Assembly: GCA_014323545.1 (NCBI GenBank)
Contig: CP058647.1
Location: 2,706,001 to 2,770,000 of the forward strand
Reading direction: 5' to 3'
From: Hyphobacterium sp. CCMP332
GTDB taxonomy: Bacteria > Bacteroidota > Bacteroidia > Cytophagales > CCMP332
DNA: 64,000 nucleotides
The translations under genes and the position numbers were made by a program. Every line of letters starts with the position of its first letter. Positions within the stretch are counted from its first letter, which is position 1. The notes below the pieces were generated by a model. The model was not told where the DNA came from. It saw only the letters and a program-made list of their open reading frames with translations, and searched no databases. Positions 4,859 to 49,080 of this stretch are shown in pieces.

Positions 4859-5302
4859 TCAGGCATACCCAATTTCCGGTCCAAGATGGACCTTGCTTCT
4901 TACAAAATTGCCATTGCCAAAAGCGACGGCCTTGCCTTCTTCATTGAGCAATACGGCTTCTGCCATCATTGTTTTTCCCGAAACAAACCTGACTTTTCCA
5001 TGCGCCGTAATTTTTCCGGAGCTCACTGGTCTTAGAAATTGTATGTTAAAAGAGCTGGTAAGTACAAATACATCTGTAATAATTGAATTGACGGCAAAAA
5101 AAGCAGCATCATCGAGCAATTTGAAATAGACCGATCCGTGAATTCCACCGAGGGCATGAAAATATTTGGGCAAAACATCAATGCTTATCCTGGCCGATTT
5201 ATCCGAGATCTCGATTTCAGTAGATTCGAAGAACTCTGAATTAATATTGGCATTGAGATACATTTTTTCCAGCTTCTTAAAATGTGCATTCTTCATGATC
5301 AA
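4859..5302 (-). CDS. PaaI-type hotdog thioesterase
   Basis: 147 residues with a single hotdog fold. HALGGIHGSVYFKLLDDAAF (about residues 50-70) is the HGG...D active-site helix of the PaaI/YigI-type acyl-CoA thioesterases, and the following beta strands (FVLTSSFNIQFLRPVSSGKI, KTMMAEAVLLNEEGKAVAFG) match the family. It probably hydrolyses an acyl- or aryl-CoA in the cytoplasm; the substrate is not evident. The start overlaps the last 4 bases of the upstream tspO, so the two are co-transcribed. Confidence 0.85.
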   Translation of the reverse strand: MIMKNAHFKKLEKMYLNANINSEFFESTEIEISDKSARISIDVLPKYFHALGGIHGSVYFKLLDDAAFFAVNSIITDVFVLTSSFNIQFLRPVSSGKITAHGKVRFVSGKTMMAEAVLLNEEGKAVAFGNGNFVRSKVHLGPEIGYA

Positions 5303-5935: not shown

Positions 5936-6361
5936 ATGTTTTCAAAGGCCTGTGAATATGCGCTAAAAATTATGATTTACCTCTGTTCGGTAAAGGAGGA
6001 GCAAAAGCTTTCAGGATTAAAAGATGTGGCTCAGGCTATAGATTCACCAAGTGCCTTTACAGCCAAAATTTTGCAAAAGCTGGTAAGAGCACAGCTATTG
6101 GAATCTCTGAGAGGACCAAGTGGTGGGTTCAAAGTTGTTGCAAGACAAATTTCTCTATTGGAAGTCGTCAAAGCGATTGATGGAGATCGACTTGTGAGCG
6201 CTTGCGTATTGGGATTAAAAGAATGCAGTAGTCAGTACCCCTGCCCCGTACATGATAAATTCGTGGCAGTAAGGGATCATCTTAGTGGTGTACTATCCAC
6301 TACCAATCTCAAAGATGTAAAAGGAGGGGTGATCATGGGCAACCGTTTTTTAAAGATTTAA
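5936..6361 (+). CDS. Rrf2 family transcriptional regulator
   Basis: 141 residues from the ATG at 5936, where the family N-terminus MFSKACEYALKIMIYL begins; a longer frame from a TTG at 5885 starts inside the promoter. The winged helix-turn-helix is at about residues 10-70 (KDVAQAIDSPSAFTAKILQK, then LLESLRGPSGGFKV). Three cysteines (ACVLGLKECSSQYPC, about residues 85-102) match the spacing class that ligates an Fe-S cluster in NsrR- and IscR-like members. Placement next to ric and the nos cluster suggests a nitric-oxide or Fe-S-stress sensor. It probably represses itself and ric through the paired inverted repeats at 5875 and 6379. Confidence 0.9.
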   Translation: MFSKACEYALKIMIYLCSVKEEQKLSGLKDVAQAIDSPSAFTAKILQKLVRAQLLESLRGPSGGFKVVARQISLLEVVKAIDGDRLVSACVLGLKECSSQYPCPVHDKFVAVRDHLSGVLSTTNLKDVKGGVIMGNRFLKI

Positions 6362-6407: not shown

Positions 6408-7133
6408 ATGGAAAATATAGCAAGACAAAAAGTAGGAGACATTGTTGCTTCCAATTTTAGAACTTCAAAAGTTCTGACAGCTCATAACATAGATTTTTGC
6501 TGTGGCGGCGGTATAAGCCTTCAGGATGCCTGCCTGAAAAAAAATCAGAATCTGGCCACGGTTATTGCCGAACTTGAAGAGGTTTTTCAAACCGAAAATG
6601 ATAAAAATTGGAAGGATTTCGAACTGGATAAATTAATCGATAGCATTGTTCAAAAACATCATGCCTATATCCTGGGCACAATACCGGCACTTCGAATTTA
6701 TTTGGATAAGCTATGCAATGTGCATGGAGAACGACACAATGAGTTGTTCGAAATTCGATCATTATTTGAAGAAGGCAGCATTGCATTGCTGCAACATATG
6801 GAGAAGGAAGAAAAAATACTCTTTCCCTATATCAAGGCAATGGTCTCTTCTGAGCGCGATGGATTTCCATTATCAAAACCTCATTTTGAACACATTGAAA
6901 ATCCTATTCAAATTATGGAGGCTGAGCACGCAACAGAAGGATTAAGATTTGCGAAAATTGCTCAACTGACAAACAACTACAGCTGTCCACCGGATGCCTG
7001 TCAAACATACAAGGTAACATACGCTCTTCTTCAGGAATTTGAAGAAGATCTTCATATACATATACATCTGGAAAACAATGTTTTGTTTCCGGCTTCGCGA
7101 AGGATGTTTAACAAACAGGTTGTAGGAAACTGA
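6408..7133 (+). CDS. ric: Iron-sulfur cluster repair di-iron protein (Ric/YtfE/ScdA)
   Basis: 241 residues, typical of the family. The N-terminal DUF542 domain (residues 1-60) has the IDFCCGGG cysteine motif. The C-terminal hemerythrin-like domain (about 75-235) supplies the His/Glu ligands of a di-iron site (KHHAYI, LLQHMEKEEKILFPYI, EAEHATEG, HIHLENNVLFP). Ric restores Fe-S clusters damaged by nitric oxide and oxidants in the cytoplasm. It follows the Rrf2 regulator by 46 bases, with a putative operator between them, and precedes the nitrous-oxide cluster, consistent with defence against NO during denitrification. Confidence 0.93.
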   Translation: MENIARQKVGDIVASNFRTSKVLTAHNIDFCCGGGISLQDACLKKNQNLATVIAELEEVFQTENDKNWKDFELDKLIDSIVQKHHAYILGTIPALRIYLDKLCNVHGERHNELFEIRSLFEEGSIALLQHMEKEEKILFPYIKAMVSSERDGFPLSKPHFEHIENPIQIMEAEHATEGLRFAKIAQLTNNYSCPPDACQTYKVTYALLQEFEEDLHIHIHLENNVLFPASRRMFNKQVVGN

Positions 7134-8307: not shown

Positions 8308-10269
8308 ATGAAAATTAGAATATTATTAATCAATTGTTTTTTCATCGCTGCTCTGGCCTTCATGGTTTCATGTGGACAGGCGGGTGAGAAAAATGGAAAT
8401 GGGGCCTTAGGAACAAGCATTGCCGAGAAGGTATATGTAGCCCCTGGCGAAAGAGACGAACAATATGGCTTTTTATCCGGTGGTTACAGTGGTAATCTTA
8501 CCGTTTATGGATTGCCATCCGGAAGACTATTTAAGGAAATTCCTGTGTTCTCACAGTTTCCTACTTCCGGTTATGGTTATTCCGAAGAAACAAAGCCAAT
8601 GTTAAACACATCGTTTGGATTTATTCCCTGGGATGATTTGCATCACCCGGATATATCGCAAACCAATGGCGAGCTTGATGGCAGATGGATATTTGCCAAT
8701 GGCAATAACACACCAAGGATCGCCAGAATTAGCTTAAGCACCTTTGAAACTGAGGAAATTATCGAAGTTCCAAACAGCGCCGGTAATCACAGTAGTTCAT
8801 TCATAACAGAGAACACGGAGTACGTGGTTGCCGGAACGCGGTTCTCGGTACCCGTTCCTCAGAAAGATATGCCAATAAAGGAGTACAAGTCTAATTTCAA
8901 AGGTGCCTTAACTTTTATTGCCGTTGAGCCCGAACATGGGCATATGGATATTAAATTCCAGTTGTTAATGCCTGGATTTAACTATGACCTTTCCCACCCC
9001 GGAAGAGGTAAGTCGCACGGATGGTTTTTCTTCTCTACCTACAATACAGAGGAAGCGAGTACACTTCTTGAAGTCAATGCATCACAGAATGACAAGGACT
9101 TCATCGCTGCAGTTAATTGGAAAAAGATCGAAGAGTTTGTAAATAATGGTGGCGGTACGAAAATGCCAGCCAATTATGCGCATAACGTATATGATGAATC
9201 CACACATACTGCAAAATCAACTATGAAGACTGAGGTACTCACCGTAAATCCATCGGATGTACCCGGAGCTATTTACTTCCTGCCTACACCAAAATCACCA
9301 CATGGTTGTGATGTGGATCCAAGCGGACAATATATCATTGGTGCAGGTAAACTTTCTGCAAACATTACCGTCCATTCATTTGACAAAATGTTGGCGGCCA
9401 TTGAAGCGGAGAAATTTGACGGCGATGCCTATGGAATTCCTATCATCAACTACGATGATGTATTGGCAGGTAGCGTGCAAAGCGGAGGATTAGGTCCATT
9501 GCATACCGAATTTGACGGAAGAGGCAATGCCTATACCACATTCTTTATCTCATCAGAAGTAGTGAAGTGGAAACTTGGAACCTGGGAGGTAGTGGATAGA
9601 AAACCTACTTATTACTCTGTTGGTCACTTGATGATCCCAGGTGGTAACTCAAGAAAGCCACATGGCAAATATCTTGTGGCTATGAACAAGATCACAAAGG
9701 ACCGATACTTACCTACTGGTCCTGAAATGGAACACTCAGCGCAGATCTATGACATTTCAGGTGAGAAAATGGAATTGCTTTATGATTTCCCGACTCACGG
9801 AGAGCCTCACTATGCGGCAGGATGTAATGCCGAATTATTGGTTGAAAATTCGAAAAAAATCTATCGAATAGATGAGAATAATCACCCATATGGTATTAAA
9901 TCGCCTGCTGATGCCCGTGTAGAAAGAGATGGCAATGAAGTTCATATCTATATGTCAACCATAAGGAGTCATTTTACCCCTGACAATATAGAAGGTATTA
10001 AAGTAGGTGATAAGGTGTATTTCCATATCACCAATCATGAGCAGGACTTCGACGTACCTCACGGCTTCTCAATGATAGGACAGGGAACTTCAGAAATTTT
10101 AATCATGCCCGGCCAAACCAAAACTTCACTTTGGGAACCAAAACGAGTTGGAGTATGGCCATTCTATTGTACAGATTTCTGTTCGGCACTTCACCAGGAA
10201 ATGCAAGGTTACGTCCGTGTTTCTCCGGCAGGCTCAAATATTGAGTTGGCCTGGTCACTGGATGAGTAA
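8308..10269 (+). CDS. nosZ: Nitrous-oxide reductase, clade II type
   Basis: 653 residues. It reduces N2O to N2 in the periplasm with a CuZ (Cu4S) and a CuA centre. The signal peptide is Sec/lipoprotein-like (Cys22 in MVSC) with no twin arginine, which marks clade II. The seven-bladed propeller supplies the CuZ histidines: DDLHHPD near 112, GNHSSSF near 160, LSHPGRGKSHGW near 230, KSPHGCD near 331, GPLHTEFDG near 398, RKPHGKY near 451 and GEPHYAAGC near 501. The C-terminal cupredoxin has VPHGF near 585 and the CuA loop CTDFCSALHQEM near 622. All expected ligands appear present, so the enzyme should be functional. Confidence 0.97.
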   Translation: MKIRILLINCFFIAALAFMVSCGQAGEKNGNGALGTSIAEKVYVAPGERDEQYGFLSGGYSGNLTVYGLPSGRLFKEIPVFSQFPTSGYGYSEETKPMLNTSFGFIPWDDLHHPDISQTNGELDGRWIFANGNNTPRIARISLSTFETEEIIEVPNSAGNHSSSFITENTEYVVAGTRFSVPVPQKDMPIKEYKSNFKGALTFIAVEPEHGHMDIKFQLLMPGFNYDLSHPGRGKSHGWFFFSTYNTEEASTLLEVNASQNDKDFIAAVNWKKIEEFVNNGGGTKMPANYAHNVYDESTHTAKSTMKTEVLTVNPSDVPGAIYFLPTPKSPHGCDVDPSGQYIIGAGKLSANITVHSFDKMLAAIEAEKFDGDAYGIPIINYDDVLAGSVQSGGLGPLHTEFDGRGNAYTTFFISSEVVKWKLGTWEVVDRKPTYYSVGHLMIPGGNSRKPHGKYLVAMNKITKDRYLPTGPEMEHSAQIYDISGEKMELLYDFPTHGEPHYAAGCNAELLVENSKKIYRIDENNHPYGIKSPADARVERDGNEVHIYMSTIRSHFTPDNIEGIKVGDKVYFHITNHEQDFDVPHGFSMIGQGTSEILIMPGQTKTSLWEPKRVGVWPFYCTDFCSALHQEMQGYVRVSPAGSNIELAWSLDE

Positions 10270-17718: not shown

Positions 17719-17960
17719 CAGTCCGATGAAGGTCCCAATAAAAGACCAGTCCCCGCAGGACCCCTCTCCAATTTGAGTTTACGGAAGGCCCGCCCTGAAG
17801 GCTCAAAGAGTCCTTCAGCGGGCCGTCAATACAATTTGAGGCAATCCATTTCAATAGGCCAGCCACTTAGATTCGAAGAGTCCTTCAGGGGGCCGTCGCC
17901 GCATTATAAGACAATCCGATACATAGTAATTCAACATAAAACCAACTATTCATATGAGGC
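17719..17960. repeat. Cluster of dispersed hairpin repeat elements
   Basis: The 399-base region between the amidohydrolase and the kinase-like gene holds at least two copies of the dispersed family. One hairpin (17780-17817) pairs GGCCCGCCCTGAAGG with CCTTCAGCGGGCC around CTCAAAGAGT. A second half-copy (17873-17898) reads TTCGAAGAGTCCTTCAGGGG then GCCGTC. Each is followed by the core GGCCGTC...CAATCC. A 90-codon open frame here is a by-product of the repeats. Nothing else is visible up to the promoter box at 18086. Confidence 0.75.
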
Positions 17961-18085
17961 CATCGCCGCATTATTAGACAAACCATCACTTAGAATTTCA
18001 ACATTAACCCCACCAAATCCAAAGACCCTTTCTCAAAATTTTTAACAAAGCACAAGCATATATCAGATGGTTTTTGAGGATTGTT

Positions 18086-18117: not shown

Positions 18118-18969
18118 ATGGAATTTAAAAATATTGAGCTCTATTTCCTCAATTCAATATTGAGGATTTCCATCATAGGCGTATCTCTGATACTCATTAG
18201 CAATATCATTTTTTATCCTTCGGACTTAATCTCTATATCAATAGAAATTACAATTCTTACGGCCTGTATCCTTGCTTACTTTTTACGTCATAAATATGCC
18301 ATAGCATCGGTCTTGATTGTTACAAGTATTACCATCGCCGCAGTTTCCTACCAAAAATGGATGTCACCGATCTCTACGGCCGGAATTCCCACAATGCTGA
18401 TCATCGGATTTATTGTCTCCGTTATGCTAAAAGGTAAAACCATGTGGATTATGCATGGCTTAAGCATGTTGCTGCTCATTCTTGTCTTTGCACCTTTCGA
18501 CACCGAACCGATTACTTCGAGCGTTACCTATCTGACCATTTATTTCGTCCTTGTTTTTGGTGCCTATAAAATCAAATCTGCCTACGATGATTTTAAAAGA
18601 AACCTGACCGATTCCAATGAAGTTTTGCAAAAGCAAACCTTGAAAATGGAAAATCAAAACAGGGAGCTTCAGGCCACGCAAAAACAACTGAATGAACTCA
18701 ACAAAGAACTCGAAAAAAGAGTCAATGAAAGAACACACCGAATCAAGGATCAAAACCAGATTCTCATTCGCTATGCCTATACCAATGCCCATCATTTGAG
18801 GGGTCCCGTTGCGCGTTTAATGGGATTGGCTTCGGTTTACCGGCTCGATTCCAAAGAGAATGCCGAAGAAATAATCGATATGATGGCCCAAGAGGCTAAG
18901 GAAATCGATTCGGTGATCAAACAAATCAATGTGGATCTCGCTGAGAAAAACCTTGAAAATCTGGATTAA
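18118..18969 (+). CDS. Membrane histidine-kinase-like protein without an ATPase domain
   Basis: 283 residues. Five or six membrane helices fill about residues 10-155, then a long coiled coil (about 160-210, rich in Gln, Glu, Asn). The end contains YTNAHHLRGPVARLMGL near 220, resembling the phosphorylated H-box of HisKA domains, and a second helix to the C-terminus. No HATPase_c motifs (N, G1, G2 boxes) follow; the gene stops directly after the dimerisation helices. It may be phosphorylated by another kinase, act as a dimer scaffold, or be a truncated kinase. The stop overlaps the convergent GIY-YIG gene by 4 bases. Confidence 0.7.
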   Translation: MEFKNIELYFLNSILRISIIGVSLILISNIIFYPSDLISISIEITILTACILAYFLRHKYAIASVLIVTSITIAAVSYQKWMSPISTAGIPTMLIIGFIVSVMLKGKTMWIMHGLSMLLLILVFAPFDTEPITSSVTYLTIYFVLVFGAYKIKSAYDDFKRNLTDSNEVLQKQTLKMENQNRELQATQKQLNELNKELEKRVNERTHRIKDQNQILIRYAYTNAHHLRGPVARLMGLASVYRLDSKENAEEIIDMMAQEAKEIDSVIKQINVDLAEKNLENLD

Positions 18970-19289
18970 GGGCTATGTGTAAAAATGGAATCCAATTTGA
19001 CATAAAGATCCTCCCATTTCGGATTAATAGAATTTATCAGGTTTATTTTCCATTCTCTTGTATATCTTTTAATTAGCCATTCCCGGTGTTTCGCTTGGTC
19101 GGCATCATCAAATTCTTCAAAATAAACCAATTTGCCAATCTTGTATTTGGCGGTAAAACTGTTTTTGTAAATAAAGTTTTTGTGTTCGTAAATTCTACGT
19201 TTTAGATCATCTGTGAAACCGGTATAAAACATTCGATGGTTTTTTGTAGTGAGGATGTACACATAGAATTTTGCTAAAACGGGCTTCAT
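18966..19289 (-). CDS. Solo GIY-YIG nuclease domain protein, copy 1
   Basis: 107 residues, a single GIY-YIG fold: FYVYILTTKNHR then YTGFTDDLKRRIYEHKN (catalytic Tyr, Arg and His positions), and the later Glu region DDADQAKHREWLIKRY. Small proteins of this type (YhbQ/UPF0213-like) are common in Bacteroidota and lack a separate DNA-binding domain. About 86 percent of residues match a second copy at 47457-47756. Both copies lie among the same hairpin repeats, so I infer that gene and repeats travelled together. Product activity is likely DNA cleavage or nicking but is unproven. Confidence 0.88.
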   Translation of the reverse strand: MKPVLAKFYVYILTTKNHRMFYTGFTDDLKRRIYEHKNFIYKNSFTAKYKIGKLVYFEEFDDADQAKHREWLIKRYTREWKINLINSINPKWEDLYVKLDSIFTHSP

Positions 19290-19339: not shown

Positions 19340-19600
19340 CGACCCCGTGACAAGCACGGGGATCTTATTATTTTGTGTGAAGCACAACTCTTTAAAAAAT
19401 CAAAAAAAAGACAAGTCCCCGCAGGAACGTAGAGACTTGCGGGGCCGTCGACGCAATTGCGACAATCCGTTCCAACAGAATTCCATTTAAGGGTCGTCTC
19501 CAAAATTTATGACAATCTGTTTAAATAGGCCAGCCTTAATGACTCAAAGAGTCCTTCAGGGGGGCCATCACTCAAATTTGAGACAATCCGCTCCTTAGAA
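19340..19600. repeat. Cluster of dispersed hairpin repeat elements
   Basis: This region between the GIY-YIG gene and the next ORF contains CCCCGTGACAAGCACGGGG (a 6-base-arm hairpin also found near the second GIY-YIG gene), then GTCCCCGCAGG...CTTGCGGGGCC and three copies of the core GGCC..GTC..GACAATCYG (ends near 19468, 19511, 19585). One copy carries TTTAAATAGGCC, the TTTAAA also present in the 72-bp array. Nothing coding is visible in 19290-19700. Confidence 0.75.
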
Positions 19601-41004: not shown

Positions 41005-41161
41005 TCTAAAATTTCTGGATACCCTTGCCTGCCGAAGCTTATTTATCTACCATAGCTTTAGCGAAGGTAGAAGCGTAGGCAGGCGGGGATTTCTCCTATT
41101 GGGGCGGATTTCTTTGTTTGTTATTAAAAGAGGCTGAATGTCACACATTGCATTGACGGCC
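41005..41161. repeat. Modular repeat element next to the tandem array
   Basis: Modules in order: CTAAAATTTCTGGATACCC; a long hairpin CTTGCCTGCCGAAGC...GCGTAGGCAGGCGGGG (41022-41082); then GGATTTCTTTGTTTGTTATT and GAGGCTGAATGTCACACATT GCATTGACGGCC. The first and last modules recur at 47.1 and 48.8 kb with a different hairpin between them. Confidence 0.75.
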
Positions 41162-41776
41162 CCCCTGAAGGACTCTTCGAGCCTTCATGACTTAAATTAT
41201 TTAAACGGAATATCTCAAATTGTGACTATGGCCGCCCTGAAGGACTCTTCGAGCCTTCATGACTTAAATCATTTAAACGGAATATCTCAAATTGTGACTA
41301 TGGCCGCCCTGAAGGACTCTTCGAGCCTTCATGACTTAAATTATTTAAACGGAATACCTCAAATTGTGACTATGGCCGCCCTGAAGGACTCTTCGAGCCT
41401 TCATGACTTAAATCATTTAAACGGAATATCTCAAATTGTGACTATGGCCGCCCTGAAGGACTCTTCGAGCCTTCATGACTTAAATTATTTAAACGGAATA
41501 CCTCAAATTGTGACTATGGCCGCCCTGAAGGACTCTTCGAGCCTTCATGACTTAAATCATTTAAACGGAATATCTCAAATTGTGACAATGGCCGCCCTGA
41601 AGGACTCTTCGAGCCTTCATGACTTAAATTATTTAAACGGAATATCTCAAATTGTGACTATGGCCGCCCTGAAGGACTCTTCGAGCCTTCATGACTTAAA
41701 TCATTTAAACGGAATATCTCAAATTGTGACAATGGCCGCCTGAAGAGCTCTTCGAGCTTTCAGGGCGGGCCTATGA
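41162..41776. repeat. 72-bp tandem repeat array, 8 copies plus a terminal variant
   Basis: Eight units of exactly 72 bases begin with TGAAGGACTCTTCGAGCCTT at 41166, 41238, 41310, 41382, 41454, 41526, 41598 and 41670; a variant ninth (41741) closes with AGCTTTCAGGGCGGGCC. Each unit holds a hairpin (TGAAGG-A-CTC / GAG-CCTTCA) and the core TTTAAACGGAATATCTCAAA. Copies alternate TTATTTAAAC and TCATTTAAAC, so the true unit is a 144-bp dimer. The 72-base period keeps a frame open, giving a false 201-residue ORF. The same core occurs singly in reverse orientation at 17.7 and 19.4 kb. Confidence 0.9.
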
Positions 41777-41811
41777 ACAATACTTTTGGGTGGGCGCTTG
41801 GGACTAGGATA

Positions 41812-43494
41812 TTATTTTGGCTTTGCGAATTTTTTTACAGCAGGGATTTGTTTTTGCTTTTGGTGCAATACCACAGATTCCTTTTTAAGTTCAATGCTTA
41901 GCGATGCTTCACCATATGGAAATCCATCGAGATAATACATGCCATTGCCAATCGGATAGGCTCTCATTTCATTAATGCTTGTTTTTGGGTAAAATCCATG
42001 ATCAAAAACACCCTTTACCTTTTGCTCTTCATCAAAGTAAATGATGAGATCAAGATCGCCCTTATCTCCATGCATTCGCATCAGGCCATGCCTTTCCTTC
42101 ACATAATACGGAATAATTGAAATCATTTTGCCCACTTGTTTTTTCATCATATTCATTCCAATCCTCATCAATCCGAAATAAGACACGAATTTCATTTCCG
42201 AATCACAATATTTGGCGAACTTCCAGTATTTTTTTCGCTCAAGACAGTCTGCGATTCCAATCATTCTTAATTCTGATTCCGATACTCCGGGAAGACTGGT
42301 TTTTGGAATTATACGGCTCACAATGCCATCGGAGTAACTAACATTTATAAAAGTATCAGTTGGAGTAAATGTCAATTTGGACTGATCTTCAAAATAATAG
42401 TCCCCTGAAAAAAGTGAATCAGAAAGCGCTAAGCTCAAAGGCTCAATTGTCTCGCCCTGCGAATATTTCCATATCCTTGAGGACCATTCTCTCAGCATAT
42501 TCACGCTTTTGCCAAGGGCATGAATGTCTTCAAAACTGCGGTTCGTCAGAATGACATGATGCTCATTGCTCTCTGCTTTAAAACTTAGAAAACTCACAAA
42601 ACCATTGTTTGCACCATCGTGCTCTATGATACCATTTTCAGCAAATTGCCATCCATAGCCGTATCTGCCATTGGCAATTTGTGGTTTTAAAAATGCAGGT
42701 CTCAGCTTTTCATTGAGAAAATCTTCATTTTGAATGATAAGGATCCATTTTGAAAGATCGGCCGCTGTCGAATAGATTCCCCCGGCTCCCGGGTACCAGG
42801 AAGGGTCAAATACCGGGGCGGGTTTTAAAAGATCATTTCTGTATCCGTAAAAAGGCCTGGCCGCATGAAGTGGCTCTCCAAAACAGGTGTTTTGAAGATC
42901 ATGAGCCGCAAATACCTTGGATTCCATATATATCTTATAGGTTTGACCGGAAATATTTTCGATGATTGCCGCCAGAAGGATATAGCCCGAATTGCTATAA
43001 CTGAATTCCTCTCCGGGTGAAAACAATAGTTTGGCATCGCTGAATCTATTGATCAAATCCTTTAAAGCAATTGGCCTTTCTTCGGGCATAAAAATTTCCA
43101 GTCCCTGCTCGGTCTGGTATAAACTTGGTATTCCGCTTGTATGCGTTAAAAGCTGATGAATGGTAACTTTTTTCCATCTATCGCTAGCGTATTCACCCAA
43201 ATAAGTATTGATAAATCCATGCAGATCTAATTTGCCTTCGGATGCAAGTTGAAGTATGGCAGCAGCGGTAAATTGTTTGCTCAACGAACCGATATCAAAA
43301 GCTGTATTTATTGAAATTTCGGATTGATCTACGTCCCGGCCGCTTGTGTATTCCAATACAGCATTGCTGTCTTTTTTGACCAGCACAACACCGTTAAAAT
43401 GCCCGTAAATTTTTTCTGCTTTGAAATACTCATAGAGTTGCGCCCGGGTAATAAACGAAACTAACAGAAAGAAAAGACCTACAAACTTTTTCAA
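41812..43494 (-). CDS. Serine hydrolase (beta-lactamase class C/DD-peptidase family)
   Basis: 560 residues with a signal peptide (about 1-19). FDIGSLSKQFTAAAI places the catalytic SxxK at Ser70-Lys73; FSYSNSGYILLAA near 165 gives the Tyr-x-Asn motif; the later EHDGANNGFVSF gives the HxG-type third motif. The C-terminal third (about 350-560) is a beta-rich domain seen in many Bacteroidota homologues. Acting in the periplasm, it may cleave D-amino-acid peptides or esters; beta-lactam resistance is not implied. It is divergent from the LytTR gene. Confidence 0.87.
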   Translation of the reverse strand: MKKFVGLFFLLVSFITRAQLYEYFKAEKIYGHFNGVVLVKKDSNAVLEYTSGRDVDQSEISINTAFDIGSLSKQFTAAAILQLASEGKLDLHGFINTYLGEYASDRWKKVTIHQLLTHTSGIPSLYQTEQGLEIFMPEERPIALKDLINRFSDAKLLFSPGEEFSYSNSGYILLAAIIENISGQTYKIYMESKVFAAHDLQNTCFGEPLHAARPFYGYRNDLLKPAPVFDPSWYPGAGGIYSTAADLSKWILIIQNEDFLNEKLRPAFLKPQIANGRYGYGWQFAENGIIEHDGANNGFVSFLSFKAESNEHHVILTNRSFEDIHALGKSVNMLREWSSRIWKYSQGETIEPLSLALSDSLFSGDYYFEDQSKLTFTPTDTFINVSYSDGIVSRIIPKTSLPGVSESELRMIGIADCLERKKYWKFAKYCDSEMKFVSYFGLMRIGMNMMKKQVGKMISIIPYYVKERHGLMRMHGDKGDLDLIIYFDEEQKVKGVFDHGFYPKTSINEMRAYPIGNGMYYLDGFPYGEASLSIELKKESVVLHQKQKQIPAVKKFAKPK

Positions 43495-43581
43495 TATTCT
43501 TTGCTTATTTGACGCCGCAAATTATTGCTAAAAAACAAAGAGGGAAATGTTTTTAATCTAATTGTGACCAACAACCATTTT

Positions 43582-44358
43582 ATGATTATGAACAACAATA
43601 CACTTTTGGATAAGCTAAAGCAATGCTATCATTTACTTTCAGCTAAGGAGCGTATTGCACATATTTTTATCTGGATTTCCGGGCTCGTTCTTATCAATAT
43701 TCCTTCCTGGGACATTACCGTTGGAGAATTTCACAGCCAGGATTATTCGCTGATAGTTCCAGGTATTTATGGACTGCTCATCAACATCACTTTGTTTTAT
43801 GGAAATACCTGCCTGGTCTATTTTTATATAAGAAAAAACAGAGCTGAATATTTTAAACAAAGCAGTCTGCTTTTTTTAATACTATGTTTTGTGGAAATAC
43901 TCCTGGATACAATCTTTTGGTCGGCTTGGAATCAAAGATTTGAGGTTCCTATTGTTCAAAGTATAGTATTGGGCACGTTTTTAATGAACGCCATATTTTT
44001 TCTGCTGCCCTCATTTGTCTATGCTGTCGTTCTAATATTAAGAAACGAAAAGCCGGTAAAAGAAAAAATTAGCATTAAAGACGGCATGCGAAATGTTCTG
44101 GTAAAGCCCAAAGATATTTTGTTTATTGAAGCCGATGGTAATTATGTGAAATTTCAGCTAAAGCATCAAAAATATTTGGAGCGCAATACTTTGGTTCAGG
44201 TTTTGGGCAAACTCCCTTCTGAATTTATTCAATGCCATCGTTCTTATATTGTTAATACCGAACAGATCCGGGAAATTCAGTACAGCACTATTCAGATTGG
44301 TGATTTCACCGTACCCATAGGCAGGAGTTATAGAAAAACACTGCGCATACTCAATTAA
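43582..44358 (+). CDS. Membrane-bound LytTR family transcriptional regulator
   Basis: 258 residues from the ATG at 43582 (an in-frame TTG at 43525 adds a non-conserved extension). Four membrane helices fill about residues 22-145. The C-terminal LytTR domain (about 160-257) shows KPKDILFIEADGNYVKFQL, LVQVLGKLPSEFIQCHRSYI and the VNTEQIREIQ ending. No receiver domain is present, so the membrane part is probably the sensor. It is divergent from the serine hydrolase gene, 87 bases apart, and may regulate it. Confidence 0.88.
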   Translation: MIMNNNTLLDKLKQCYHLLSAKERIAHIFIWISGLVLINIPSWDITVGEFHSQDYSLIVPGIYGLLINITLFYGNTCLVYFYIRKNRAEYFKQSSLLFLILCFVEILLDTIFWSAWNQRFEVPIVQSIVLGTFLMNAIFFLLPSFVYAVVLILRNEKPVKEKISIKDGMRNVLVKPKDILFIEADGNYVKFQLKHQKYLERNTLVQVLGKLPSEFIQCHRSYIVNTEQIREIQYSTIQIGDFTVPIGRSYRKTLRILN

Positions 44359-44403
44359 TTGAAGAATTCAGTTAAGCATGTTCACACAGCACGAGAACAG
44401 TTT

Positions 44404-44463
44404 GAGCTTTCAGGGCAGGACTTTTACTATTTAAACGCATTTTAACGAGCTCATCGAGCTCGT
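44404..44463. repeat. Repeat fragment with a perfect hairpin
   Basis: GAGCTTTCAGGGCAGGAC resembles the closing end of the tandem array. Then ACGAGCTC-ATC-GAGCTCGT (44445-44463) forms an 8-bp hairpin. It lies between the LytTR gene and a convergent gene and could terminate transcription on both strands. Confidence 0.55.
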
Positions 44464-44487
44464 GAAAGGTTCCTCATTTTCAACTCT

Positions 44488-45396
44488 TTATAAAGAGGCC
44501 ATATGATCCATCATTAAGTCAATATAAGTATTGATTAATTCAATCGAATATTGCTTGTATTTGGCTTCATCCGCTTTAAGTACGTAAAACCCATCTTTTA
44601 TTTCTCCTGTAGCTTCGAATCCATCTTTATTTGGGTGACTAAATTTTAAAATCGTACTTAATTCTCCATATTTTAATGAGGGAGTTAATATTTGCAGCGA
44701 TGCTCCTCCGTGTATACTGGATTCCAGTAGCATTTGTCCGGTTGTTTTTCCTTCATCGAATAATTTTGAACTCTCAATCTTTTGTCCAAAAGAAAGAAAA
44801 TTGATGTCAAATCTAGAAATTACCGCATTGGTCTTCATGCTCGGTACTGCTTTAAAATACATCGTATTGCCAACAACTTCGGGATACACAGGCCGATTGT
44901 TTTGTGTAAATGTTCTTGCTTTGACTTTTTTGGTAAAATTTGGATTTTGCACCGATTTTTCGACTTTTGGCTCTTCCGACTTTTCCTTTAACTTATCGAT
45001 GTTCTTTGCACTGAGAAATTTATTATAATCATCAATGCTATAGCCGAATTCTGTTAATTTCTTCTCTAAATATTTACCGGTTTCATCTGCAATTTCCTGA
45101 AATGTATCATCGCTTACACCTTCCAGAAGAAATCCATATTGCTGACCAACTTTTCCTCCTGCTCCGGTACCAACATATTTATAAAAAGCTGAGGTATAAA
45201 ACGTAATAGCATGAGAAGTCAGTATTCCCGATTTTTCCTTTAAGGTTTTTTTCATTTTTGTATCTACAAAAACCTTTTTATCTGTTTCACTTAAAATGGG
45301 TACTTCGGCAGATTTATTTTGTGATGCCAAAGCCTGCGCAAAAAGATAGTTCATTCCCAAGACAAGGAAGGCTAAAAAAAATAGTCCCTTTTTCAT
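44488..45396 (-). CDS. Secreted protein of unknown function
   Basis: 302 residues with a signal peptide (about 1-22). The mature part is Lys-rich, with a helical region (about 85-145, ending in EEPKVEKSVQNPN) and a C-terminal beta-rich half (VVGNTMYFKAVPSM, SLQILTPSLKYGELSTILKF). It has no lipobox. I do not recognise a family. It appears to be a single-gene unit. Confidence 0.75.
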   Translation of the reverse strand: MKKGLFFLAFLVLGMNYLFAQALASQNKSAEVPILSETDKKVFVDTKMKKTLKEKSGILTSHAITFYTSAFYKYVGTGAGGKVGQQYGFLLEGVSDDTFQEIADETGKYLEKKLTEFGYSIDDYNKFLSAKNIDKLKEKSEEPKVEKSVQNPNFTKKVKARTFTQNNRPVYPEVVGNTMYFKAVPSMKTNAVISRFDINFLSFGQKIESSKLFDEGKTTGQMLLESSIHGGASLQILTPSLKYGELSTILKFSHPNKDGFEATGEIKDGFYVLKADEAKYKQYSIELINTYIDLMMDHMASL

Positions 45397-45880
45397 GATT
45401 ATATATTTATGTGATTGGATGTTATTTTCGAAAATGTACGCTGATTAGGTTGATTGAAGCCTTTTATGTTATTTATTCTAAATAAATCTAATAATAAATT
45501 TAATATATCATATATATAATAATATATATTATGAAATTCACACAGCTTTTATTTGTCTTCAATGACCCGGCATATCTGTTAAAACAGGCATAAGTAATTA
45601 TTGCTTTCACTATATTTTGATTAAAATTCTTTAATGCCACAGTTTGGATTTCAAAAATGAAAAGCATTTTTGTATAGGTTAGTTTGTAAGTCATTTATAC
45701 TTTTCCTTGTTTGCAAAAAGGATGTTAAAAATCATTACATTTTTTTGTCACAGCGATATTCAATACTAAATAATTTATACACCTGAAATCAAATACATTA
45801 GTAAATAATGTCCTCAATAGTGAAGTTTCCATCTACCAAAAATTTATTCTATTCAGAAAAATCCTCAGCCCAGAACAGGC
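45397..45880. other. AT-rich intergenic region
   Basis: This region includes a run of alternating A and T (about 45505-45535) capable of cruciform formation, and a 64-codon minus-strand frame that lacks protein character. I see no RNA gene and no hairpin repeat of the dispersed family. Confidence 0.4.
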
Positions 45881-45916
45881 AAAAAAAAAGCACGAATCCA
45901 ATCCGTGCTTTTTTTT
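45881..45916. terminator. Bidirectional intrinsic terminator
   Basis: AGCACG (45889-45894) pairs with CGTGCT (45904-45909), extended by A-tract and T-tract on either side to a stem of about 13 pairs. It ends the minus-strand lipocalin gene, whose stop is at 45932, and could also act on the plus strand. Confidence 0.85.
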
Positions 45917-45931
45917 ATTCAAGATGAAGGA

Positions 45932-46420
45932 TTACTGCTTTATAAGCGTAGCGGTAATGGTATGTTCAGTCGTGTCGAATTCTTCTATTACGGTTGCTAC
46001 AATCTGACTTGTAGTAATTGAAACAATCGTAAATGTACTGGTGTCGTCATCGTTGCTAATTTCAGTTAAGAGGGTTTCACTTGAGTTGAAAGACCAGGTG
46101 CCTTCATCATAAACTTCACCTCCCGTACCTGCAGAATCACAAGATATTGCACCTTCTTCGTGGGCATAAGTTCCATCGGCATTCCAGTTAAGAAGATCAT
46201 CCCTGTCGCATTCTTCGAGGAAATTATTGTAAAAATCTGTTACAAGCGTTCCATCTCCCCGATCTACGGCCGGCGCGATAGTCATAGCTGTAATTTTCCA
46301 TTTTCCCTCTGTAAGTAATTCGGTTTTTGATTTAGAAGTTCCTGGTGTATTGCTACTGTCATCATCGCCACAAGCGATAAATAAAGACGTAATAATTGTT
46401 AATAAAAGTAAATTTCTCAT
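45932..46420 (-). CDS. Lipocalin-like lipoprotein
   Basis: 162 residues from the ATG at 46420 (or 168 from 46438). The lipobox ends at Cys17 (FIAC), followed by an Asp/Ser-rich linker. The domain has GKWKITAMTIAP near 40, an acidic loop with NWNADGTYAHEE, then GTWSFNSSETLLTEI and VSITTSQIVATV, the pattern of small Bacteroidota lipocalin-like (Lipocalin_4 type) lipoproteins. The ligand is unknown. It is a monocistronic gene with its own terminator. Confidence 0.78.
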   Translation of the reverse strand: MRNLLLLTIITSLFIACGDDDSSNTPGTSKSKTELLTEGKWKITAMTIAPAVDRGDGTLVTDFYNNFLEECDRDDLLNWNADGTYAHEEGAISCDSAGTGGEVYDEGTWSFNSSETLLTEISNDDDTSTFTIVSITTSQIVATVIEEFDTTEHTITATLIKQ

Positions 46421-46571
46421 AGTTATAAATTTATTCATTTGGCAAATCTATGCATCAATAATTACAAATTTATTAATGGCAATTTATTTATTTATATCCA
46501 GCTTGTTTCAATTTTTAAGAAACTTAGTAACGCTGCCAATTCAAAATCATATAATTAATTCAATCACAAAA

Positions 46572-46601
46572 AAAGGAAGCTTCATTTAAGCTGCTTCCTT
46601 T
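46572..46601 (-). terminator. Intrinsic terminator of the 138-residue membrane protein gene
   Basis: On the minus strand, AAAGGAAGC and GCTTCCTTT form a 9-bp stem around a 12-base loop, followed by a run of T residues. It lies 23 bases past the stop of the gene ending at 46625. Confidence 0.85.
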
Positions 46602-46624
46602 GAAATTAGGATTTACAAAATGTT

Positions 46625-47041
46625 TTATTCCCTTCCCAGCATCCAGCCTATAGCGCCGCCAGTGATACCCAGCATAATGGCCGTTACAAATGGATCCACA
46701 AGGGTAGCAGTAAGGTTCATGGCATTGCTGGTGCCGTACCAGCTGAGGTTGAGCCCAAAACCCAGTATAAGCCCGATAATGGCGCCGCCTTGTAAGCCGC
46801 CCATAAAGGTTTTGATCTGCGCCCAGGTACCGAAAATATAAACCAGCAAATAGGCCTGAAATACATTTCCGAGTATTAATGCCCACCAGACCATTTCATC
46901 TTCCGCCCTGTTGAGGCCTGTTGCCGATCCCGAATTGCTAACATAAAAATCCATGAGCAATGCGCCGTAAAATAGCCAGCCCAGTAGAAACAATACCACA
47001 AAGCCAACAAGTGTCGCTAAAATTCTGCTTTTAATTGTCAT
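46625..47041 (-). CDS. Small four-helix membrane protein, unknown function
   Basis: 138 residues with four hydrophobic segments (about 8-30, 50-72, 80-100 and 112-134). A polar periplasmic segment (GSATGLNRAEDEMVWWALIL) follows helix 1. The last helix is glycine-rich (ITGGAIGWMLGRE). The layout is like small Bacteroidota DUF1761-type proteins, but I cannot confirm the family. It has its own terminator; the 5' side abuts repeats. Confidence 0.75.
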   Translation of the reverse strand: MTIKSRILATLVGFVVLFLLGWLFYGALLMDFYVSNSGSATGLNRAEDEMVWWALILGNVFQAYLLVYIFGTWAQIKTFMGGLQGGAIIGLILGFGLNLSWYGTSNAMNLTATLVDPFVTAIMLGITGGAIGWMLGRE

Positions 47042-47119
47042 AATGTATTGGGGTTTAGTTTTTTACATATACAATTTAAGCAATATTTATAATATTTGAT
47101 TCTATTTTGGGAATTATGA

Positions 47120-47450
47120 GATTCTTGCCTGCCGAAGATTATGCTAATAAGCGTAGGGGAGGCGGGATTTCTTTTTTTGTTATTTAATGAGGCTGATTGT
47201 CACTCATTGCATTGACGGCCTCATAATAAAAATTCATTTGGAACAGATTGTCAAAAATTTCATCGACGGCCCCGCAAGTCCCCCGTGACAAGCACGGGAT
47301 CCTGCGGGGACCGGTCTTTTGTTTTGGGCTGTGTGAATTAAAGTTTTTCAAATTAGAATTATGTCTCCCACATTAAAATAAGGTCCCCGCAGGAATTGCG
47401 GGGCCGTCGAATCAATTGCGACACTAACTTCCTTAGAAGTTCCTTTCCTT
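47120..47450. repeat. Modular repeat cluster upstream of GIY-YIG copy 2
   Basis: Modules: CTTGCCTGCCGAAGATTATG...GGCGGGA hairpin; TTTTTGTTATTTAATGAGGC and TGATTGTCACTCATTGCATTGACGGCC; GGAACAGATTGTC...CGACGGCCCCGCAAG; the GTGACAAGCACGGG hairpin inside a larger CCCCGCAAGTCC...CCTGCGGGGACC stem; then GGTCCCCGCAGGAATTGCGG and GGCCGTCG...CAATTGCGACA. The order and the GTGACAAGCAC hairpin match the cluster at 19.3-19.6 kb next to GIY-YIG copy 1. This fills the whole gap 47042-47456; only the first 80 bases lack repeats. Confidence 0.75.
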
Positions 47451-47456
47451 GGCTTG

Positions 47457-47756
47457 ATGATGCCTCTATTAAACAAATTTTATGTCTATATACTAACCAC
47501 AAAAAACCATAGAGTGCTTTACACCGGTTTTACAAATGATTTGCACAGAAGAATATATGAACACAAAAATTTTATATACGAGAACAGCTTTACTGCAAAA
47601 TATAAAATATCTAAGCTTGTTTATTTTGAAGAATTTGATGATGCTGATCAGGCAAAACATCGAGAATGGTTGATAAAGAGATATAAAAGGGAATGGAAAT
47701 TAAATCTAATTAATTCTATAAATCCGAATTGGGAAGATCTCTACAATACTTTGTAA
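47457..47756 (+). CDS. Solo GIY-YIG nuclease domain protein, copy 2
   Basis: 99 residues from the ATG at 47457, the start that aligns with copy 1 (other start codons lie one codon to either side). It has FYVYILTTKNHR, LYTGFTNDLHRRIYEHKN and DDADQAKHREWLIKRY, so the catalytic Tyr, Arg, His and Glu are kept. It differs from copy 1 (18966-19289) at about 14 residues, giving about 86 percent identity. Repeat modules flank it on both sides. Recent duplication together with the repeats is inferred. Confidence 0.88.
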   Translation: MMPLLNKFYVYILTTKNHRVLYTGFTNDLHRRIYEHKNFIYENSFTAKYKISKLVYFEEFDDADQAKHREWLIKRYKREWKLNLINSINPNWEDLYNTL

Positions 47757-47764
47757 TGACGATC

Positions 47765-47941
47765 CGCTAGTAGGACTCTTCGAGCTATGATAAAGTTCTC
47801 GATCTAATATTTCGGGAAACCCTTGTCTGCCGAAGATTATGCTAATAAGCGAAGCCAGGCGGGGACTGGTCTTTTATTGGGAGTTTCAATTGATTGATTG
47901 TCCTTTTTTAACAGACGAAGTTTTAACGAAGTCTGTCATAT
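47765..47941. repeat. Modular repeat cluster downstream of GIY-YIG copy 2
   Basis: AGGACTCTTCGAGC (the hairpin sequence of the tandem array); TAATATTTCGGGAAACCC; the CTGCCGAAGATTATGCTAAT hairpin with GCCAGGCGGGGAC; then GGAGTTTCAATTGATTGATT and ACAGACGAAG...GAAGTCTGTCAT (47911-47941). The last module is repeated at 48918-48979 with only a few changes over about 60 bases. Confidence 0.75.
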
Positions 47942-47948
47942 TGTTATA

Positions 47949-48581
47949 TCAACGAAGTTGATCATTCTTCAGCACTTCCGACTTAATGAGATTTTTGAAA
48001 AGCAGCTTTGAAAATTCAGGAAGAAATTCATCAAATTCTGAATAGTCGAAATCCCTCGATCGGCCGGTCCATACCAATTGCCCTTTTTTGAGTTCATAGA
48101 AATTGACTTCCAGAAAATATTTTGAATTGACAGAAAAATACCCCGGTCTGTACACCATCTGATAGGTGTTTCTATAATAATTGCCGAAGCGTTCATAAAA
48201 CAGAAAAGGCTCATATACCACCTCGGGTTCGATGTACCTTGTCTCATTGATATTCACAAGAGTTACAGTCAATACGCCATCATAGCCTTTGCCTCGCATT
48301 CTGGTTTTGGCATTTTCTACATCTTCGAAGGGTTTTCCGAGCTCGGGCGGGAAAAGCGACATGCCGTTTCCGGTCGAAATTCTTTCGAGTCGGGCGGCAT
48401 AGACAAATTCATTTTCAATTGAAGATCTCAGATTCACATTGTTAATCAGCCCCATGATCAGAATATTGTCAAATGACTTTTCGTAGTCATAGGAGGTCAT
48501 CCATGTGCGCAGAATATCTTCACTGGCACAGGAGAATAGGAAGGCTAATATTAACACTGAGACTTTACTCGTCCTGAACAT
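47949..48581 (-). CDS. Lipoprotein of unknown function
   Basis: 210 residues from the ATG at 48581; the open frame reaches a TTG at 48617, but the signal peptide begins at MFRTSKVSVLILAFLFSC. The lipobox Cys18 is followed by ASEDILRTW. The body has beta strands (NILIMGLINNVNLRSSIENE, then VLTVTLVNINE, then KYFLEVNFYEL) and a C-terminal helix, the layout of DUF4136-like envelope lipoproteins; this resemblance is weak. Its 3' end abuts the repeat cluster at 47.8-47.9 kb. Confidence 0.7.
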   Translation of the reverse strand: MFRTSKVSVLILAFLFSCASEDILRTWMTSYDYEKSFDNILIMGLINNVNLRSSIENEFVYAARLERISTGNGMSLFPPELGKPFEDVENAKTRMRGKGYDGVLTVTLVNINETRYIEPEVVYEPFLFYERFGNYYRNTYQMVYRPGYFSVNSKYFLEVNFYELKKGQLVWTGRSRDFDYSEFDEFLPEFSKLLFKNLIKSEVLKNDQLR

Positions 48582-48754
48582 GGCTTTAAAGATGTGGAAT
48601 TTGACAGGAAATGCCAATTGACTAAGAGGAGAATATCGTTTATTAATATTTAATTAATGAAACTGATAGCTTTTACAAAGCATCGGAAGCTTGGCTGCAT
48701 GAGTTGTTTAATTAAAATCAGTTATTGAAGAACCATTCATCATTTGATCGCTCT

Positions 48755-49080
48755 AAAATTTCGGGAGACCCCGGATTTCCCGATAGCTATCGGGATCCGG
48801 GGATAGTTTTTTATTGGAACAGATTTCTTAGTTTGTTATTTAAAGTGGCTGATTGTCATACATTGCAATGACGGCCCCGTAATGAGCTTCGCTTCTACGG
48901 GGACTTATCTTTTATTTGGAGTTTCAATTGATTGATTTTCATTTTTAAACAGACGAAGTTTTAACGAAGTCTGTCATCATGTGCTTTACACTGACAGCCA
49001 TAGGCTCGTCATGTGTAATCACCGAAGCTTAAGCGTAGGTGATCGTCATGTACTTTATACTGACAACCCGAGGCTCGTCA
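48755..49080. repeat. Modular repeat cluster with a long palindrome and 34-bp direct repeats
   Basis: Modules: CTAAAATTTCGGGAGACC; the palindrome CCCCGGAT-TT-CCCGATAGCTATCGGG-ATCCGGGG (48769-48802, pieces joined); GATTTCTTAGTTTGTTATTT and GGCTGATTGTCATACATTGC; CCCCGT...ACGGGG; then GGAGTTTCAATTGATTGATT and the ACAGACGAAG hairpin (48949-48976). Two 34-bp direct repeats (48978-49011, 49047-49080) beginning CATGTGCTTTACACTGACAG and CATGTACTTTATACTGACAA flank ATCACCGAAGCTTAAGCGTA, whose ends can pair. The second copy supplies the stop codon of the hydrolase gene. The gap 48582-48754 holds no feature. Confidence 0.8.

Follow-up and report, generated by a model that had tools for sequence, protein, structure and literature searches.

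Few repeats of bacterial genomes are as common as repetitive extragenic palindromes (REPs). The class tagged GTAG has an enzyme, RAYT (TnpAREP), of the Y1 HUH type, and together they form the REPtron, in which a single small enzyme gene is flanked by short palindromes. REPs tagged CGTC have been described by Di Nocera et al. (2013; PMC3733652), whose main text states that they "apparently lack a dedicated transposase", names no partner enzyme and does not contain the word GIY-YIG; the reasons proposed there are that the enzyme is extinct or that unrelated transposases are used. Our search of the literature, with most subscription journals and preprints outside its coverage, found no paper connecting GIY-YIG genes with REPs. 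The present analysis concerns a 64-kb stretch of DNA (the window), bases 2,706,001-2,770,000 of the single 3,325,829-base (3.33-Mb) contig of Hyphobacterium sp. CCMP332, in which hairpin repeats surround two paralogous genes for small GIY-YIG endonucleases. We propose, with moderate confidence, that these repeats are REP-like hairpin units that belong to the two genes and spread locally around them, as a derived case of a wider partnership between nuclease and palindrome. The partners would be a clade of short GIY-YIG proteins and, on the side of the palindromes, CGTC-type REPs in an alphaproteobacterial sample and GTCATT-type REPs in the window's order.

The candidate enzyme is encoded by a 100-aa open reading frame (ORF) on the + strand (47454..47756, first ATG at 47457; PF01541, E 3e-13), located between two composite repeat copies, B and C. 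The predicted protein has a GIY-YIG domain that retains the conserved Tyr, Arg and Glu; Y10, Y12, Y23, G25, R33, H37, E71, K75 and K82 are among the invariant columns of its alignment (8 relatives), and we take these residues to be catalytic. PF01541 is its only Pfam match, with no sign of a Y1 HUH tyrosine transposase. A phage origin was rejected, the protein having no match among phage records at E 1e-8, as was a role as a defence gene, since a weak PADLOC helicase-model match (E 0.004) for one of the two window proteins was all that was found. A paralogous gene, 87% identical over query residues 2-98, lies about 28 kb away on the − strand (18966..19289) and has units on both sides. The two are referred to below as the 47-kb and 19-kb genes.

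As we read it, the elementary unit consists of a head (GATTGTC, 8-13 bases, GACGGCC), a sequence-variable hairpin and a short tail. Allowing at most one mismatch, the head occurred 9 times in the window, as against none in 19 of 20 randomised windows and one in the remaining window. With two mismatches there were 12 occurrences (0-4 per randomised window), of which that at 4906 is probably due to chance. Since the pattern becomes unspecific at three mismatches (26 in the window, 10-16 in five randomised windows), only heads with 0-2 mismatches were used. In the whole contig, TTGTCN{7,14}GACGGCC matched five times, never further than about 1.2 kb from one of the two paralogous genes and always on the strand of that gene (two matches by the 19-kb gene, three by the 47-kb gene); the reversed control pattern gave two chance matches. 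The outermost unit, composite copy A, lies more than 6 kb from the 47-kb gene. The initial annotation had described the repeats as a dispersed family. This did not hold: a core motif searched with 3 mismatches was found at four places in the contig, all at 41.1-48.9 kb of the window. The whole-contig searches took as queries the copy at 48.74-48.99 kb, the unit head in two versions and a further palindrome (CCTGCCN4GGCAGG), a subset of the modules and hairpins, and matches to unit head and core motif lay only around the two GIY-YIG genes. The unit family is local, because matches are confined to these surroundings. CGTC REPs are characterised by many copies genome-wide, whereas the window family occupies four places (core motif) or five (TTGTCN{7,14}GACGGCC). 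The annotation had named no enzyme; the GIY-YIG gene among the copies, now the candidate, was added by the present analysis, together with a second set of units around the paralogous gene (17.8-18.0 and 19.4-19.6 kb) and inverted units directly upstream of both genes.

Repeats also accompany relatives of these genes in other genomes. In named genome contigs a repeat pair spanned the gene in 15 of 34 GIY-YIG relatives, several of which had inverted 25-30-base hairpins tight against the gene. Among 391 genomes of the window's order, 190 contained a GIY-YIG match at E 1e-6. Forty genes from among the best-scoring matches listed were taken with 12-kb stretches and blind to repeats, and the 400 bases upstream were compared with the 400 downstream by local alignment, a score of at least 40 being counted as a pass. 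Flanking repeats were found at 33 of the 40 genes (direct at 25, inverted at 12), as compared to 22 of 267 neighbouring ORFs (p 6e-23) and 15 of 480 windows, given equal spacing to remove the effect of gene length and placed more than 2 kb from the gene (p 9e-34). The most enriched words in the flanks were TTGCGAG, CATTGCG, GTCATTG and CGTCATT, and the density of GTCATT[GCT] fell from 5.6 per kb at 0-250 bp from the gene to about 0.5 beyond 1.5 kb. GTAG was absent among the 14 best 6-mers and 7-mers of this and of the alphaproteobacterial sample described below, no direct GTAG search having been made. At least three GTCATT REPs were present in 61 of the 190 genomes with the gene and in 14 of the 201 without it (odds ratio 6.3).

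Individual loci give a picture of how such repeats are arranged. In Maribacter litopenaei (G394), the flanking palindrome has 15 copies, 11 of them no further than 7.5 kb from the GIY-YIG gene and four elsewhere, two of these four as an inverted pair. This is local spread with some escape, and it resembles REPtrons, whose palindromes are likewise found elsewhere, singly or in inverted pairs. In Aquimarina (L027), long direct repeats flank the gene on both sides. One locus (L131, G168:C12) has two GIY-YIG copies, at 6001-6264 and 6766-7029, 765 bp apart and identical over 264 nt, which by their sequence are a recent tandem duplication. At four Flavobacteriia-type loci (L033, L035, L041, L049) the gene stands between the same two neighbours, with inverted TGTC-led hairpins on both sides; here the position has long been kept and the repeats retained. 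In Planktothrix agardhii p1 (L243 451-810, 5989-6273) the gene lies amid DISARM and restriction-modification genes, with a 'four helix bundle protein' gene nearby and GTCATTCTGAG repeats around. Cyanobacteria were dropped as a further test clade, as too few genomes matched (5 of 116).

A second sample was drawn from the class Alphaproteobacteria (around L022), where 45 of 142 genomes had a GIY-YIG match. Flanking repeats were found at 17 of the 30 loci returned; of 20 longer stretches, 13 passed the flank test, as compared to 2 of 501 control windows (p 3e-19). Since word enrichment was weak in these flanks, a structural REP detector was used (GTC, 0-3 bases, a perfect stem of at least 7, a loop of 3-8, CCA). 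With thresholds set after the flanks had been inspected, and with 19 of the 20 loci overlapping inspected loci or sharing their search, 15 of 20 genes had strict CGTC REPs no more than 400 bp away (7 on both sides and 8 on one), and 5 had none. The 15.8 kb by the genes contained 35 of these REPs and the 292.6 kb lying beyond 2 kb contained 15, a 43-fold difference in density, and shuffled flanks yielded no tagged REP. The tagged REPs resemble CGTCATCCCCGCGAAGGCGGGGATCCA. Three genes of a single genome (G519; L171, L174 and L175) have three different adjoining REP sequences. Among 12 named records from a plasmid collection, the one from Neisseria gonorrhoeae being chromosome-sized, 7 genes had REPs no further than 500 bp away (21 REPs in 12 kb, compared with 9 in 108 kb), namely the genes of Azospirillum lipoferum, Sinorhizobium meliloti (one of two genes), Rhizobium, Shinella, Aeromonas, Photobacterium and Neisseria gonorrhoeae. 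In PMC3733652, A. lipoferum and S. meliloti are listed as CGTC species, and the form described there (C/TGTC tag, stem, short loop, CCA tail) is that of the palindromes in the alphaproteobacterial sample and at these 7 of the 12 named loci.

The window units, which are longer and begin with TGTC, do not fit the strict pattern and were rejected as strict CGTC REPs; they are best read as a derived, local version of REP-like hairpins. With REPtrons these loci share REP-like flanks on both sides (33 of 40 and 13 of 20 genes in the two samples, and the window genes by position of their units). They differ in that the enzyme is of the GIY-YIG and not the HUH type, and in the tags, CGTC/TGTC and GTCATT. 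On the best reading, by analogy, the GIY-YIG nuclease would serve REP-like hairpins as RAYT serves GTAG REPs. It is hardly credible that the association is due to chance, or to small nuclease genes happening to lie in islands generally rich in repeats. Some controls do score (the 15 of 480 and 2 of 501 above), and a repeat pair of some kind was present in four of ten control stretches of the window's own genome, in one case as a large gene family; against this stand the sizes of the effects relative to the controls and the fact that the enriched words of the order sample, such as GTCATTG and TTGCGAG, are REP words.

Comparison of congeners points to insertion of entire blocks at two loci. In Azospirillum lipoferum 4B, a block made of a CGTC-REP pair, a GIY-YIG gene and a second REP pair lies between sufB and sufC in a spacer of 617 nt and is bounded by outward CGTC REPs. 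The same site is about 490-600 nt shorter in eleven other listed Azospirillum records, and in the four congeners that were read the spacer measured 91, 87, 129 and 55 nt and was devoid of the block. Because the empty state is the commoner one, gain of the block is the simpler reading in this genus. In Shinella, alignment showed the block in two records and its absence in three. The comparison was made in these two genera, the genus of the window organism having no other member among the 391 genomes. A GIY-YIG gene with REPs occupies the sufB-sufC spacer both in A. lipoferum (L248 1078-1488) and in Shinella sp. PSBB067 (L247, about 1050-1500), and a DUF559 gene occupies it in Sphingomonas parapaucimobilis (L234 5986-6279); the spacer may be a hot spot for small nucleases.

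The main rival explanation builds on the fact that GIY-YIG proteins are classic homing endonucleases: REPs would spread by other means, and the gene, a free-standing homing endonuclease that targets the REP, would for this reason come to sit between REPs while playing no part in their movement. A small GIY-YIG ORF at sites empty in relatives (Azospirillum, Shinella) is indeed what free-standing homing endonuclease genes look like, and the A. lipoferum gene does lie between two REP pairs. There is a weak similarity, below the cutoff, to TIGR01453 (group I intron endonuclease), and 14 genomes have the repeat with no detected gene. We nevertheless hold this explanation to be unlikely. It is weakened because in the window genome the unit is restricted to nuclease genes, our searches having found matches adjoining these genes and no dispersed unit population. 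Tag density drops steeply away from the gene, and each of the three genes of G519 has a REP sequence of its own. Furthermore, the genes considered here differ from free-standing homing endonuclease genes in being flanked by palindromes and in occurring as several divergent copies per genome, with repeats that differ between copies.

The association is restricted to part of the protein family. The UPF0213 proteins, which we take to be the YazA group, share domain and size with these nucleases and include the two best matches among solved chains (1zg2 and 1ywl, E 0.001 and 0.04). A tree was built from 121 proteins, any stops being set to X; it excluded L209 and L224, with flanks too short to score, and nine of the 34 loci from named contigs (L022 and L039, the same as L137 and L206, and L043, L044, L045, L046, L048, L049 and L050). 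Flanked genes made up 63 of 91 in one clade (support 100/95) and none of 21 in the UPF0213/YazA group, the fork of which has weak support (40/84). A sample from the class Clostridia, collected as a negative control with a UPF0213-type query, had 19 scored genes; three of them were flanked, and these belong to another type, all three placing in the clade of 91. These figures bear on a regulatory or structural role, in which the hairpins would terminate transcription of the nuclease gene or act on the stability of its mRNA, or the nuclease would be a host factor trimming cruciforms. Some GC-rich hairpins are followed by T runs, as at 47270-47325. A role of this kind is nonetheless highly unlikely given that repeats stand on both sides and in both orientations, that copy A is more than 6 kb away, and that flanks of this kind are absent from all 21 UPF0213/YazA genes of the tree and rare in windows of the same spacing.

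Within the window, matches to five modules were located on the + strand: TAAAATTTCnGGA at 41007 and 48754, with a one-base variant at 47805; GTTATTnAAnGnGGCTGA at 41120, 47179 and 48835; TGTCA..CATTGCAnTGACGGCC at 41139, 47198 and 48854; GGAGTTTCAATTGATTGATT at 47880 and 48918; and ACAGACGAAG..GTCTGT at 47911 and 48949. They match as the initial annotation had written them, but none recurs at all four of the places it gave (41.0, 47.1, 47.8 and 48.8 kb): the 47.8-kb copy is without the middle module, and the copies at 41.0 and 47.1 kb are without the GGAG and ACAGACG modules. It was right that the hairpins differ, several types being located between otherwise alignable modules. Hairpins of the CTTGCCTGCCGAAG type lie at 41022-41088, 47124-47166 and, as CTTGTCTGCC, 47820-47864; CCCCGGAT[TCCCGATAGCTATCGGGA]TCCGGGG lies at 48769-48802, a hairpin of the CCCCGCAAGTC type at 47270-47309, and one more type at 48875-48902. 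Two of these look like nested palindromes. At 47270-47309, CCCGTGACAAGCACGGG sits within the loop of CCCCGCA...TGCGGGG, and the paralogous unit at 19417-19444 is without the inner palindrome; at 48769-48802, TCCCGATAGCTATCGGGA sits within CCCCGGAT...TCCGGGG.

Composite copy A (41007..41161, +) is made up of module 1, the hairpin at 41022-41088 and the unit head GAATGTCACACATTGCATTGACGGCC (41136-41161). It runs on into a 72-bp tandem array (41158..41762, +) of 8.4 copies of a CTGAAGGACTCTTCGAGCCTTCA hairpin unit. The period of the array, divisible by three, leaves a 201-aa open frame with a 24-residue repeat (41138-41743), which is probably not a gene. The first part of copy B (47124..47220, +) comprises the CTTGCCTGCCGAAG hairpin at 47124-47166 and a unit head (47195-47220); there follow a second head (47246-47271) with the nested CCCCGCAAGTC / CCCGTG hairpin (47246..47309 in all, +) and, immediately 5' of the GIY-YIG ORF, an inverted unit (47385..47426, −) with its head at 47402-47426 and a CCCCGC...GCGGGG hairpin at 47385-47403. 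Copy C (47805..47936, +) has module 1, a CTTGTCTGCCGAAG hairpin, the GGAGTTTC module and an ACAGACG hairpin, with neither the middle head nor the second hairpin. Copy D (48754..48974, +) has module 1, the nested CCCCGGAT / TCCCGATAGCTATCGGGA hairpin, a unit head (48851-48876), a CCCCGTAATG hairpin (48875-48902), the GGAGTTTC module and an ACAGACG hairpin; behind it, at 48975..49080 (+), are more short repeats that look hairpin-like by eye. About 1 kb downstream of the 19-kb gene, the segment 17733..17983 (−) holds a GGGGACTGGTCTTTTATTGGGA tail and three heads (17821-17846, 17891-17916 and 17958-17983), of which two have a CTGAAGGACTC hairpin after them. Upstream of this gene, 19343..19588 (−) holds three more (19443-19467, 19492-19517 and 19563-19588), a CCCCGCAAGTC hairpin (19417-19444) and, at about 19.32-19.36 kb, an inverted unit with a CCCCGTG hairpin (19343-19361). 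A known RNA element was rejected for these repeats, Rfam having no match at gathering score in the window.

The changes of hairpin and the nesting fit insertion or exchange better than plain duplication, as the initial annotation had supposed, judging from the sequence. Local duplication must also be part of the story, because genome-wide matches surround only two GIY-YIG genes and are co-oriented; the 72-bp array belongs here as well. One may ask whether duplication suffices, slippage or breaks at hairpins producing tandem and segmental duplications with no transposition, and the nuclease being at most a source of breaks. The array, the placement of all modules of copies A-D on one strand, the long direct repeats of Aquimarina and the identical gene copies of L131 would agree with this. 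We regard it as distinctly unlikely, as it leaves unexplained the inverted flanks (12 of 40 order loci and 12 of 30 alphaproteobacterial loci), the presence or absence of entire blocks at unrelated sites and the differing hairpins between constant heads.

The contig holds eight PF01541 places, one of which is UvrC, as judged by its 598-aa open frame. Self-comparison of 20-kb stretches revealed repeats within 1.5 kb of 5 of the 7 other GIY-YIG genes (L051, L052, L053 and the two window genes); in this comparison there were none near the L054 gene and none anywhere in the L055 stretch or the UvrC stretch (L056). L051, a third gene of the clade, is flanked on either side by TCCCGGATAATATCCGGGA repeats of its own. 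The repeats of L052 and L053 are of a different kind and linked to tRNA genes. The palindrome CCTGCCN4GGCAGG occurs at four distinct sites in the contig, 442047, 449603, 2380009 and 2472863 (L052 2543-2562, L052 10103-10122, L257 and L053 10163-10178), its reversed pattern at none. By our reading, all four sites lie within partial tRNA-gene copies (Leu, Arg, Ala, Ser) that adjoin an intact tRNA gene, in the D arm in three cases and the T arm in one; the partial tRNA-Ser copy has two additional small palindromes, one in the anticodon loop. Near the GIY-YIG gene and tRNA-Ser of L053 there is also a direct duplication of about 280 bases, 98% identical (9057-9339 / 9420-9699). Four other GIY-YIG genes of this genome that group in the tree (97/86), L010, L011, L012 and L015 (449370, 2472566, 2367594 and 1490833), are each within about 300 bases of a tRNA gene, those of L010 and L011 lying between a partial and an intact tRNA-gene copy. 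As other GIY-YIG genes of the genome adjoin tRNA genes, tRNA targeting was considered for the clade; it was rejected as a general rule, ARAGORN detecting a tRNA in 2 of the 40 order stretches, in neither case near the GIY-YIG gene.

That the nuclease mobilises the units is our inference from the association itself, its confinement to one part of the family, the decay of tag density with distance and the presence or absence of blocks between congeners. The enzyme would recognise its own hairpin unit, extruded or single-stranded, and nick or cut at or beside it, or at a target; repair of the break would copy the unit, or an entire REP-gene-REP block, into the break. Repair between direct units may yield tandem arrays and duplicated genes, and hairpins may be exchanged between constant heads by copying between units with unlike loops, or through insertion of a palindrome into the loop of another. 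A single process would then give rise to local spread, to flanks both inverted and direct, to tandem arrays and to the exchange of hairpins.

A number of points weigh against this proposal. Presence or absence between species is silent on the acting enzyme, insertions are read from sequence, and at the Azospirillum and Shinella sites the borders are too diverged for an exact insertion border or target duplication to be read. GIY-YIG enzymes hydrolyse DNA and we know of none that joins strands, so that host repair must be invoked. The one-strand arrangement of copies A-D is what segmental duplication would give, and the 64-kb window contains no strict CGTC REP (C/TGTC tag, perfect stem of at least 7, loop 3-8, CCA tail). 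In the window genome 3 of 8 GIY-YIG genes, UvrC included, pass the 400-bp flank test; the 19-kb gene fails it (score 20) because its downstream units begin about 1 kb away, and the L051 repeats are without the CGTC tag. By the same test 7 of 40 order genes, which were not a random draw, and 13 of 30 alphaproteobacterial genes have no flanking repeat, while flanks of unrelated GIY-YIG loci match each other in 11 and 10 of 236 cases (4-5%). Enrichment of 6- and 7-mers in the alphaproteobacterial flanks reached p 1e-5 at best. Co-occurrence of GTCATT REPs with the gene is weak in the two largest families (f11, p 0.056; f18, p 0.47), with p 0.005 in the rest. Fourteen genomes with at least three GTCATT REPs have no GIY-YIG match at E 1e-6 (G034, G052, G072, G073, G096, G194, G206, G228, G282, G290, G291, G303, G359 and G362); in these the gene may be lost or more distant, or a different enzyme may act. 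Finally, the flank label needs 27 changes on the tree, against a shuffled mean of 40; because of this and of the weak fork, losses and misses must be common.

There is also a broader proposal, to which we give even chances: the small GIY-YIG clade would be the missing dedicated enzyme of a CGTC/GTCATT REP superfamily and a second, non-HUH means of moving REPs. It would nick extruded hairpins and have them copied in the course of repair, for the most part close to its own gene. This would also account for palindromes that sit in the loops of palindromes and of tRNA-gene copies. The presence of a candidate gene between CGTC REPs makes the question of the missing enzyme testable, with a single small nuclease, hairpins of its own as the substrate, and sites with and without the block in soil bacteria that can be cultured. 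Were the proposal true, short GIY-YIG proteins would gain a function; their present annotations go no further than 'GIY-YIG nuclease family protein', 'excinuclease ABC subunit C' or 'hypothetical protein'. The same pairing of enzyme and hairpin recurs in many bacteria, which suggests that enzymes of this type are responsible for the spread of a large class of bacterial DNA hairpins with a hitherto missing moving enzyme.

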